NCBI RefSeq assembly: GCF_010646885.2
Contig: NZ_CP050700.1
Location: forward strand, 6,020,001 to 6,084,000
Reading direction: 5' to 3'
Length of the DNA stretch: 64,000 bases
Origin: Desulfopila sp. IMCC35008
GTDB taxonomy: Bacteria; Desulfobacterota; Desulfobulbia; Desulfobulbales; Desulfocapsaceae
This document shows positions 33,978-38,620 of this stretch, one piece after another. How positions within the stretch are numbered: position 1 is the stretch's first letter; each line of letters starts with the position of its first letter. A program made the translations under genes and the position numbers. The notes beneath the pieces were generated by a model, which did no database searches, was not told the DNA's origin, and saw only the letters and a program-made list of their open reading frames with translations.

Positions 33978-36446
33978 TCAGCCTTTTTCTAATTCCTCTT
34001 TTACGGCCCGAGCGAGAGAGAGTACGGTATATGGTTTTCTGATATATTGCCCGGCACCCAGCTGCTGGGCATCTACAATATTCCTGGTTTCCGAATAGCC
34101 GCTGGCAATAATCGCTTTCTGTTTCGGTTGTATTTGTATAGCCTGCTCAAAAGTGTCCCGTCCATTCATGCCACCCGGCATGATCATGTCCAGGACCAGG
34201 ATGTCGTATTGGTTCCTCTTCATGAGGGCCAGGGCCTCTTCACCGCTTTCAGCGCTGTAAACCGAATACTTCAGTTTTTCCAGAATCTCCGTTGCAAACT
34301 GACGCTGCTCCTCCATGTCGTCAATTACAAGCACCGTTTCGCCTGCACCCTGGTAATCGTTGATCCGCTCGATCACTTGTGGGATGATGTCCTTTCTTGA
34401 GGCGGGGAAATAGAGAGAAAAAGTGGTTCCCTGCCCAGGCCTGGTATCGATATCAATGTGGCCGTCATGATCCCTTACAGTGTTCCACACCAGGGTCATG
34501 CCAAGGCCTGTACCGCTTCTGCCCATTATCTTTGAGGTGTAAAATGGTTCGAAAATATGGTTGAGTTCTTCTGCAGAAATGCCTGTTCCGGTATCCTTGA
34601 CAATCAGCAATACGTACTCTCCGGCTGGCATACCCGGTACGGGAAAGTCCGTTTCGATATACCTGTTTTCTGTTGCGACACTGAGAATACCGCCATCCGC
34701 CATTGCTTCGATGCTATTGGTTATAAGGTTGAGCAAACATTTTGAGAGGTGGACGGGCGACCCTTGGAGGTTGAGCAGGTCATCGGCCAGGGTGAGGTGG
34801 ACGGTTATAGTACTGCTCTCTTTAAGGAGTGAGGTGTATTCGGGGCTTTCTTTCAGTTCGGAGATTATGTGATTAAGGTTGATGGTCGTTTTGTTGTCCA
34901 CGCTGTGTCGGGCAAGGGTCAGTAAGTCAGAGACAATTGCGGCGGCCCGGATACCTGATTGTTTAATTGTCTGAAGGGGACGATACATCGGATCCGTTTC
35001 CGGCCTTTCGACCAGCAGCATGTCCGGATAACTCACCAGGCCGGAGAGGATATTGTTCAGGTCATGGGCGACGCCACCAGCCAGCAAACCGATAGCTTCC
35101 ATCTTCTGGGCGTTTTTCAGTTTTTCCTCAAGTTCTTTCATCTGGGTTATGTCGTGAATATCCAGGGTGTACCCTATAACGTTATTGTCCAGGGTCGTAT
35201 AGGGGGCAAGATGAATATGCCAGTGTCGTTTCGTCTCACCAGGCCGTTCATAGATTCCTGTTACGTGTGATTGTTCTCCCTGGAGGCATGCTGCAGTATG
35301 GTCATCCAGACATATGTTGAAAAAAGGCTGGCTGATGACATCGGGAAGGGTTTTGGTTTCAAGCTCTTGGCGGCTCTGGCCAACCAGTTCACGATAGGTG
35401 CGGTTGACCAGCAGGTGTTTGTGACTCGTGTCAAAGAGGGCAATGGCGTCAGGCGATGTTTCTACAACCCTGGCGTATTTCTGAAGTTCCTCGGTTACTG
35501 CCCTGTTTTTTTCTATTTCCTGCTGTAATTCACTATTTGCTTTAACCAATGATTTTGTCTGTCTGGAAACCTGGCTTCTGAGAAACATGCTGATGGCACA
35601 GAGCAGGGACAGGGTAATTAATATGACTGCAATAAGATACTGTACGGACTTGGGAATGGTGTTTTCCTGCTCAAGTCTGAGCCATTTTTCGAGCGCCTTG
35701 TAATAGGGTGAGTCCGAGTGGTTCTTGTATTGAACCAGCTTGGTGTCTAAAATAGTGAGCAGATCCCTGTGACGATCCTTGGGTGCAGCGTAGCGAACCT
35801 CGATAGGGTTGAAGATTATTGGCGAAATCAGGGTCTTATATTTTTTTTGATTAGCCCGGCCGAACATCCTATTGACCACGCCTATATCGAGGTACCCTGT
35901 GTCAAGCATTTCAAAGATGGTCTGGTAGCCGTCTGTTTCTATGAACCTGCAGGTGACGTTGAATTTCTGGGTGAGTTCCTTGAGTGCCTTAAAATGAATA
36001 TCTCCCATTTTTACCGCAACGCGTTTTCCCTCAAGATCGAGGAGAGAGGAGAGATGTTTGGCGTGGGAAGAGTATATCTCGGCCCAGTTGGCCATGACCG
36101 TCTCGTCGTTAAAATCCAGGAATTTTGCGCGCTCACTGCTGAACGCAACAACGGGTAGCAGGTCTATTTCCCCGGCAGCGACTTTTTCGAACAATGAGTC
36201 CCAATGTCCCTGCTCAAACTCGAGTTGCCATCCTTCCTCTGTAGCTAGAGCTTGCAGGATGTCAATAAAAAGGCCGGCTGCTTTACCGTCATCAGCGGTG
36301 AAGATGAGAGGTTTGTTGTCATATACCCCAACTCTTAATGGTTTTGCTGCCCATGCCGTAATGACGGTCGAGAGCAGCAGGAGGACTATGCAGATGGGTG
36401 TCAGATAACGGTCAGGCAGCAGTGTCTTTATCAAAGTAGTGGGCAT
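33978..36446 (-). CDS. Hybrid histidine kinase with periplasmic substrate-binding domain
   Basis: 822 residues. Signal/anchor at 1-33, then a periplasmic SBP_bac_3 domain (LRVGVYDNKPLIFTADDGK, GEIDLLPVVAFSSERAKFLDF, about residues 35-270). A membrane helix at about 290 (IAVILITLSLLCAISMFL) and a short coiled coil follow, then a PAS domain (YARVVETSPDAIALFD). The kinase core has its phospho-accepting His in LAGGVAHDLNNILSGLV and ATP-binding G boxes (DTGTGIS, GTGLGMTLVW). A receiver domain closes the protein (VIDDMEEQRQFA, phosphorylated Asp in LVLDMIMPGG). The start is the ATG at 36446; a TTG at 36509 is in frame. The periplasmic ligand is unknown and no cognate regulator is adjacent. Confidence 0.92.
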   Translation of the reverse strand: MPTTLIKTLLPDRYLTPICIVLLLLSTVITAWAAKPLRVGVYDNKPLIFTADDGKAAGLFIDILQALATEEGWQLEFEQGHWDSLFEKVAAGEIDLLPVVAFSSERAKFLDFNDETVMANWAEIYSSHAKHLSSLLDLEGKRVAVKMGDIHFKALKELTQKFNVTCRFIETDGYQTIFEMLDTGYLDIGVVNRMFGRANQKKYKTLISPIIFNPIEVRYAAPKDRHRDLLTILDTKLVQYKNHSDSPYYKALEKWLRLEQENTIPKSVQYLIAVILITLSLLCAISMFLRSQVSRQTKSLVKANSELQQEIEKNRAVTEELQKYARVVETSPDAIALFDTSHKHLLVNRTYRELVGQSRQELETKTLPDVISQPFFNICLDDHTAACLQGEQSHVTGIYERPGETKRHWHIHLAPYTTLDNNVIGYTLDIHDITQMKELEEKLKNAQKMEAIGLLAGGVAHDLNNILSGLVSYPDMLLVERPETDPMYRPLQTIKQSGIRAAAIVSDLLTLARHSVDNKTTINLNHIISELKESPEYTSLLKESSTITVHLTLADDLLNLQGSPVHLSKCLLNLITNSIEAMADGGILSVATENRYIETDFPVPGMPAGEYVLLIVKDTGTGISAEELNHIFEPFYTSKIMGRSGTGLGMTLVWNTVRDHDGHIDIDTRPGQGTTFSLYFPASRKDIIPQVIERINDYQGAGETVLVIDDMEEQRQFATEILEKLKYSVYSAESGEEALALMKRNQYDILVLDMIMPGGMNGRDTFEQAIQIQPKQKAIIASGYSETRNIVDAQQLGAGQYIRKPYTVLSLARAVKEELEKG

Positions 36447-36617
36447 TGTTTGCTGTGAAAGAAAAAACAACGTTTTGTGGACTATATTGTTTACAGAGAC
36501 GATGGTCAAATATGAATCAACAGGTCCGTGATACCGAGAGACGGAAAATACAAAAAGGCGATTCCGTTTATTTCGAAAACGCCCTTCTGGATTGGATCTT
36601 ATACTGGTAAATATAGG

Positions 36618-37030
36618 CTACTGCTTATAAATGTAGGTTCCTACATGCTCCCCGTTAATGGCCTTGGTTATATTGCCCGGGACCATGCCGTTTATTACAT
36701 GGAGTTTTTCTATAACCTCTCTGTTCTGCAGGATTTCCAGGCAGGGCCGCTCGACGACCAGGTCGTCCTGGTCCTTGTCGAGGAGATCCTGGGCACCAAT
36801 TTCCGGGATAAATGTAGCGTCCGGATCTTTTTTGGGATCGCAGGCAACGCCTTTGCCCCTCGATCACAGATCGACTGGCCGCCTATTTTAAGTACCACCA
36901 CATCAGGATAAAGTCTTTCCTGCGGCGCGATATCCAGTTTGTCAATAAACTCCTTGCTGACAAGACTTTCGCCCATAAGCGCGCTCTTCACATGCAGTCT
37001 TTTACCGTCTTTTACACGGACGAGTGCCAT
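36618..37030 (-). pseudogene. Molybdenum storage protein subunit, internally deleted
   Basis: Two pieces of one gene in different frames. The 5' piece starts at 37030 (MALVRVKDGKRLHVKSALMG) and reaches VVVLKIGGQSICDRG, the N-terminal amino-acid-kinase motif of molybdenum storage subunits (MosA/MosB-like). The 3' piece, one frame over, reads DPKKDPDATFIPEIG, DLVVERPCLEILQN and VINGMVPGNITKAINGEHVG, the C-terminal part of the same family, and stops at 36618. About 125 middle residues (nucleotide- and metal-binding core) are missing compared with the family. The join is near 36860, so the product cannot be functional. Confidence 0.8.
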
Positions 37031-37122
37031 GTAGATCTCCTTATTTCAGGCTGCGTGTGCCTGGGATTGGTTATAATGAGAAGATGTTACTACAGTTGTG
37101 AGCAGAAATACTGCGTGCCTGA

Positions 37123-37530
37123 GAAGAGAGAAAAGTCTTTGAAGAGTACGCAAATCCAATTATTTTTGCGAAACTTTTGGGAGTTCATTTATCCGAGCAT
37201 GGAGGAACCGGGGAGGGGGTAATCGGTGCTCTTGCAGGGGTTGGGCTCAGGTTGTTTGGTTCGGACGGCAGGATGCGGGGCTGGTACACTGACTGTTTTC
37301 AAGGAGAAGAAATTTCGGCAATAGAGTTGCTGCAGCGAACAGGGCACGCAAGGGTGGTTAATCAAGAATGTATGGATGTCCCCGGCTCCGACATTATCAG
37401 GATCGAAGATAGAAGGGTTAAGAAAGTGCTCATGGGCGGCAAAGAGGTCATACCCTTGGTCAAAGCAGCCGAAGGAGGAGTTCAGGCTAAATGGGCTACT
37501 TTGACCAAGGAGGAGGTGAAGCGGTTTTAA
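37123..37530 (+). pseudogene. C-terminal gene fragment with GGTGEGVIGALAGVG motif
   Basis: An open frame starting after a stop, with no good ribosome binding site; the first plausible start is TTG at 37177. The sequence LGVHLSEHGGTGEGVIGALAGVGLRLFGSDG and the charged tail (VLMGGKEVIPLVKAAEGG) look like the conserved C-terminal end of a larger protein. The glycine motif recalls agmatinylcytidine synthase (TiaS/DUF1743)-like proteins. Upstream frames are interrupted, so the front of the gene seems lost. It lies head-to-head with the molybdenum-storage pseudogene. The family is uncertain. Confidence 0.5.
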
Positions 37531-37713
37531 GCGTCATCGGTTGCGGTCATCAACCGGGGTGACACCACTTCTTGGTATGACATCACAGGTGGAGGGCAGA
37601 CTCTCATCTGTGACTATTCCTTTGCCGGATAAACGTTCTGGCCGGCAAAAGTGAGGAGTTGTCCGGATATGGTCGGACAACCAGTACAGCGATTTATTGG
37701 TCCTACACGTTAC

Positions 37714-37885: not shown

Positions 37886-38620
37886 ATGGATGCAGTATTT
37901 AAAGAAGTAAAAGTAGAGAAGGTCTCAGATAAAATAGTCAATCAACTGATCGACCTGATTACCGAGGGCAAGCTCCTGCCCGGTGAAAAGCTGCCGAGCG
38001 AAAGGCGGCTGACCGACCTGTTCGGGGTTGGGCGCTCATCCTTGCGGGAAGCCTTAAACACCCTGGAAACCTTGGGTTTTATCGAGATTAAGAAACGGAA
38101 AGGCAACTATGTAAAAAATATGGATGGGGCGGTTGCCCTCAATCCATTGAAGAAGATTATGCAGGTTGATCAGAAGCGTATCGTCGAGCTTTATGAGGTG
38201 CGCAGGAGCATTGAGCAGTCATCAGCAAGGGAGGCAGCCGAAAACAGGACCGGTGAGGATCTTGCAGCCATGCATAAAGCGCTGCACCTGTTTAATCATT
38301 CAGCTGAAAAGCTTGTTTTTTCATGGGATGATGAAATTGCCTTTCATCTGGCGATAGCCCGGGCTTCCCATAATTTCCTTCGGCTGCATACATTGAAATC
38401 CATCTTTGATTTTGCCCGGGAATTCCTGGAGCCGGTCCTGCATGGGTTTATCTGCAGTGAAGAGCGCATGAACACGGTATTTAGCCAACACACTGCAATC
38501 TATGAGGCCATCGAGGCTCAGGATAAGGATCTCTCCCGTCATCTCATGCGAGAGCATTTGTTCGGCACCAATAAAAAACTCTCAGATTTCTTCCAGGAAA
38601 AAAAGATGAGGCTTTTGTGA
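37886..38620 (+). CDS. GntR-family (FadR subfamily) regulator with FCD domain
   Basis: 244 residues. N-terminal winged helix (residues about 10-80) with the conserved LLPGEKLPSERRLTDLFGVG and SSLREALNTLETLGFIE. The C-terminal all-helical FCD ligand domain follows (LYEVRRSIEQSSAREAAENR, WDDEIAFHLAIARASHN, HTAIYEAIEAQD), with metal-binding His and Asp typical of regulators of organic-acid use. Two identical TGGTCTGACCA operators lie in its own promoter region. The genes it would normally control are not next to it: the neighbouring locus is decayed and the next gene is convergent. The inducer is unknown, possibly lactate, glycolate or pyruvate. Confidence 0.92.
   Translation: MDAVFKEVKVEKVSDKIVNQLIDLITEGKLLPGEKLPSERRLTDLFGVGRSSLREALNTLETLGFIEIKKRKGNYVKNMDGAVALNPLKKIMQVDQKRIVELYEVRRSIEQSSAREAAENRTGEDLAAMHKALHLFNHSAEKLVFSWDDEIAFHLAIARASHNFLRLHTLKSIFDFAREFLEPVLHGFICSEERMNTVFSQHTAIYEAIEAQDKDLSRHLMREHLFGTNKKLSDFFQEKKMRLL

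Follow-up and report, generated by a model that had tools for sequence, protein, structure and literature searches.

A MosB-like molybdenum storage gene reduced to a pseudogene by a single internal deletion, and the remains of its locus in the genus Desulfosediminicola

To our knowledge, the storage of molybdenum (Mo) or tungsten (W) in an ATP-loaded protein cage has been characterized experimentally in one organism. The closest described system to the locus considered here is the molybdenum storage protein MoSto (MosA/MosB) of Azotobacter vinelandii. MoSto was said in 2019 to have no known homologues, and an A. vinelandii mosAB deletion is viable, with impaired Mo accumulation and impaired resilience to Mo starvation (PMC6448029). 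The TOBE storage proteins Mop and Tub, whose family is unrelated to MosB, represent an alternative solution to Mo/W storage (PMC11980592). UMP kinase PyrH and isopentenyl phosphate kinase, both of the amino-acid-kinase family, belong to the same fold family as MosB and match the tail of our relic weakly.

Here we describe a broken gene of the MosB type and the remains of its locus in a 64,000-nucleotide stretch of the Desulfopila sp. IMCC35008 genome (hereafter the window), whose genus is Desulfosediminicola in the taxonomy used. The best explanation of our observations, to which we assign a probability of roughly nine in ten, is that an ancestral locus with a gene X on one side and a gene pair Y-mosB on the other suffered two deletions in the window species, that the loss is recent, and that a sister species carries different lesions. 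The features are collected in Table 1.

Table 1. Features of the relic locus and its surroundings, in window coordinates
Feature	Position	Strand	Basis or remark
Hybrid histidine kinase, second flanking anchor	33978..36509	-	same place in G002
mosB-like pseudogene, ATG to TAG, 413 nt	36618..37030	-	831-nt gene minus 418 nt
3' piece, codons 204-276 + stop, frame differs from the start codon's	36618..36839	-	E=1.4e-22 to MosB
Deletion junction with GATCC	36835..36839	-	5-nt microhomology, inferred from relatives
5' piece, codons 1-63 + 2 nt, start-codon frame	36840..37030	-	tblastn to intact relatives
Second deletion scar; Y, intergenic region and 5' half of X missing	37031..37164	.	distance compared with intact loci
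Ribosome-binding site AAGGAG, intact, ahead of broken mosB	37037..37042	-	sequence
X relic, last 121 residues (C-terminal part) of a TiaS-like protein of ~250 aa	37165..37530	+	divergent from mosB in intact loci
Conserved structured block, single copy; overlaps X at its 3' end and precedes the GntR gene	37452..37618	+	in all four congeners
GntR/FCD regulator, syntenic anchor	37886..38620	+	77-83% identical in congeners

Read from 37030 to 36618 on the minus strand, the relic passes through MALVRVKDGKRLHVKSALMGESLVSKEFIDKLDIAPQERLYPDVVVLKIGGQSICDRGAKALPA, a change of frame and DPKKDPDATFIPEIGAQDLLDKDQDDLVVERPCLEILQNREVIEKLHVINGMVPGNITKAINGEHVGTYIYKQ to a TAG stop. A joint search of solved structures with its two pieces returned matches only to subunits of the molybdenum storage protein, with MosB the best. 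The 5' piece corresponds to A. vinelandii MosB residues ~9-56 (~20 bits) and the 3' piece to residues ~196-267 of the MosB chain (E=1.4e-22 in the joint search), so that the pieces lie in order along MosB with the middle absent. A chance match is excluded by these E-values and by the tail, which is 72-88% identical to that of intact relatives. The first-pass annotation, made from the DNA letters alone, had set the relic at exactly 36618-37030 and recognized in it both ends of a MosA/MosB-like subunit in different frames; the alignment to molybdenum storage subunits that it recommended bears this out, as MosB is matched by each piece in turn. Intact relatives of 276 aa occur in Desulfobulbales genomes and are homologous to MosB over the whole chain; one of them, used as query, scores 221 bits to MosB (E=1.6e-64, 260 ungapped residues, 14-273 against 8-267), compared with 157 bits to MosA. 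Desulfoprunum benzoelyticum and Desulforhopalus singaporensis are two of the species with an intact gene. The assignment to the MoSto type therefore holds, with MosB and not MosA as the closest solved subunit.

The intact genes comprise 831 nt with the stop, whereas the relic comprises 413 nt from ATG to TAG. A single internal deletion of 418 nt (3 x 139 + 1), leaving nucleotides 1-191 and 610-831, accounts for both the gap and the frame change, and since the relic measures exactly 831 - 418 = 413 nt, nothing else has been inserted or lost in it. In all 19 of the intact mosB genes, the ALP motif falls on codon 61 and DPKK on codon 204. The earlier proposal that an internal deletion had destroyed a MoSto-type gene is thus confirmed as one 418-nt lesion with no second lesion in the remaining 413 nt, while its estimate of about 125 missing core residues should be corrected to 139-140. 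The window contains no complete mosB-type open reading frame, as 418 nt are missing and the frame is broken; with a disabling lesion here and intact orthologues elsewhere, this is a pseudogene by deletion, and a case of ordinary gene decay. The junction itself reads GATCC, with GCG-ATC-CTC on the 5' side in two relatives and GAT-CC or GAC-CC on the 3' side in all. It is plausible from these relatives that a 5-nt GATCC repeat stood at both breakpoints, and the 418-nt deletion would probably have taken place between two such short repeats, removing mosB codons 64-203 and shifting the frame. Slippage as the mechanism, and the order of the deletion events, are what we infer. The shortened gene would encode a peptide of 106 aa that lacks the amino-acid-kinase fold core, in which case no Mo/W storage protein of the MosB type would be made.

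The neighborhood of mosB has been damaged as well; the first-pass annotation overlooked this damage, to X and Y alike, and also the separate decay of mosB in a sister species. Upstream of mosB, each of the six intact loci examined has a divergently oriented gene X (~250 aa), whose N-terminal region resembles those of TiaS and methanogenesis marker 11. The IDDTD N-terminal region of X matches these families at E 5e-8 to 5e-13, but at ~250 aa X remains far under both family cut-offs (32-35 bits to TiaS NF040849, against a curated cut-off of 600 bits), and the half retained in the window lies mostly outside the match. The relic open reading frame of X is ~41-47% identical to intact X proteins, and full X (E<1e-70) is present in 11 of the 97 genomes, every one of which has mosB. 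Its companion Y, a protein of ~65 residues, is encoded on the same strand as mosB and 5-80 nt upstream of it in intact loci (L010:5157-5360, L012:4850-5053 and L013:5155-5349, among others). Across the 97 genomes, Y sits directly 5' of mosB in 16/16 mosB-bearing relatives, in which mosB is intact or truncated at a contig end, and occurs in 0/81 of the others. Nine Y sequences share 18 invariant positions, and a confident prediction (pLDDT 85.5) gives a fold of beta hairpin, helix and strand, for which no relatives were found in the PDB at E<=0.001; a Pfam scan of the first 42 residues gave no match. Y and mosB also occur together on a contig assigned to a Synergistaceae MAG (L011:1851-2985), either by inter-phylum transfer or because the contig is mis-binned.

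Y was not found in any of the four genus members, including the whole genome of the window species, where the mosB start is separated from the xLSEHGG codon of X by 156 nt, as opposed to 912-1107 nt in intact loci. In our model, X and Y-mosB would have stood on opposite strands in the genus ancestor, the latter pair probably as an operon, and a deletion of ~0.8-0.9 kb in the window species would have taken the first half of X, all of Y and the intergenic region shared between them. As a conserved gene set, the intact X-Y-mosB locus has apparently not been described before, and it is of more interest than the relic itself.

Overlapping the end of X is a conserved block of ~170 nt, for which RNAalifold predicts three hairpins, and for 12 of the 36 pairs both partners are changed in one or more of the four sequences. 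A covariance model of the block recovered this site only, other matches being near noise; no Rfam family covers it, and it is restricted to the genus. Its encoded end, WATLTKEEVKRF, matches X proteins, which suggests that the block is probably derived in part from X, and with such an origin the ancestor would have had X at this site. The block is retained also in congeners where X is gone.

The first-pass annotation had further claimed that this copy was lost, and suggested looking for an intact one elsewhere. The host genome is a single contig of 6,316,145 bp, and a direct search of it with an intact relative produced nothing else significant, nor was the missing middle part of mosB found at any other place, so the claim stands for the genome as a whole. 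Five AA_kinase family matches, considered as possible intact copies, lie at other loci and were rejected. One strong mosB copy per genome is likewise the rule among the relatives, the only further clear match being a degraded tail fragment of 33 codons (L045:1501-1599; G029:C23:25535-25633) from a genome where an intact mosB is present as well.

The surviving part of the gene is well preserved. Its 136 codons show a mean pN of 0.111 against intact genes, compared with 0.113 for the intact genes among themselves, with synonymous sites near saturation in the same comparison. Of 72 residues invariant across 19 intact genes, 2 are changed in the relic, whereas intact genes left out one at a time show 0-4 changes. 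As the surviving codons are as conserved as those of intact genes, mosB would have been under purifying selection until recently and its loss, to judge from these codons, is evolutionarily recent.

Comparison of the four members of the genus, among them D. flagellatus IMCC35005, shows that the flanking genes are syntenic in all of them. D. flagellatus retains, in unchanged orientation and flanked by the same anchors, a mosB fragment that covers the gene from ~codon 196 onward; it contains frameshifts, and both the 5' part and a stop codon at the usual position are missing. The other two congeners (G001 and G002) have no recognizable mosB. A deletion common to the window species and D. flagellatus was rejected, as the latter keeps the sequence from ~codon 196 on, which is partly deleted in the window, and lacks the 5' part that the window relic keeps. 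The lesions are independent: neither broken allele can be derived from the other, so at least two inactivations are needed within the genus, and the codon conservation of the window relic makes it unlikely that the gene had already been inactivated, without visible trace, in their common ancestor. In an rpoB tree the genus (support 98/98) splits first into the window species and the other three, which group together with support of 100/99. Loss of mosB by way of nitrogenase loss was also rejected, since nifD is present in 4/4 genus members and shows no association with mosB, occurring in 10/16 genomes with mosB and 45/81 without (Fisher p=0.78, 97 genomes). This same lack of association means that service to nitrogenase alone is not supported as the role of mosB. 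On present comparisons, the genus has kept nitrogenase but lost the putative storage gene on at least two occasions, and the viability of the A. vinelandii deletion is in line with such occasional loss.

The role of the intact locus is suggested by its surroundings. Genes of modA type lie near intact mosB in L009 and L013, the latter also with a Tup-like ABC set nearby (matched by the TupA, TupB and TupC models below cut-off), and MOT1-family molybdate transporters lie near it in L010 and L017. In the last of these, from Desulfofustis glycolicus, mosB adjoins a MOT1-family molybdate transporter, nifB and nifN-like genes (L017:6795-12169). A gene between the mosB relic and the GntR gene of D. 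flagellatus (L078:11229-12287) encodes a tyrosine-recombinase-like domain followed by two Mop/TOBE domains, which we take to be the architecture of tungstate-responsive TunR regulators. Together, the Mo/W-transport and nif neighbors and the TunR-like protein support a role for the mosB locus in Mo/W homeostasis. The host genome itself keeps nifD and TOBE proteins of ModE-like and ModC-like size, and has none of Mop size. No MosA-like partner was found in the 97 genomes or beside mosB, so the two paralogues of an (alpha-beta)3 cage are not found together. The first-pass annotation had proposed that the host or its ancestor once stored Mo or W in a protein cage. The loss of the gene is borne out, while for storage the full-length MosB homology and the Mo/W-transport and nif neighbors give good grounds for thinking that the ancestor may have had this function, although MosA is absent from the whole lineage.

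Two alternatives concern the relic itself. It is very improbable that the cell has an intact gene from which 418 nt were lost by collapse during assembly: the mosB junction may contain a short repeat, but 5 nt is far too short to collapse an assembly, and a single-contig genome, a truncated X next door, a Y missing genome-wide and a broken mosB in a sister species as well all argue against such an error. It is scarcely credible that the shortened gene is still used, with the 106-aa open reading frame or the tail fragment acting as a functional small protein. The start codon, ribosome-binding site and protein-level conservation are indeed intact, but recency fully accounts for the conservation; reading on from the start codon beyond the junction gives out-of-frame sequence, no separate start is evident for the tail, the partners X and Y are broken or gone, and the sister species has kept a different fragment.

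A third alternative accepts the decay and questions the function, holding that the lost protein was another protein of the amino-acid-kinase fold, a MosB-like enzyme with a role other than Mo/W storage. The absence of a MosA partner throughout the order, the independence of mosB from nitrogenase noted above, and the presence of Y as a strict companion and of the TiaS-like X, which are not known to be part of the Azotobacter system, would all fit such an enzyme. We nonetheless consider it unlikely, if deserving of attention, as MosB is by far the closest solved protein to the intact relative (1.6e-64, against the far weaker ~5e-9 of UMP kinase) and the neighbors are molybdate/tungstate transport genes and nifB/nifN-like genes. 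With recent decay of an ancestral X/Y-mosB locus as the preferred reading, we tentatively propose, at rather less than even odds, that the Desulfobulbales possess an undescribed single-subunit Mo/W storage system, consisting of a MosB-like protein with an obligate 65-residue Y and often a TiaS-like X, which would have been repeatedly dismantled in the window's genus while the Mo nitrogenase was kept.

Set against MoSto of A. vinelandii, the intact relatives come from sulfate reducers; they are homologous to MosB along their full length, and a new partner gene is strictly linked to them. Genomes that carry nif genes and have recently lost mosB in nature would make it possible to test when a cell can do without storage. 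Unlike the Azotobacter system, the Desulfobulbales loci contain a single subunit type without MosA and are linked to Y and X, and the copy in the window is a pseudogene.
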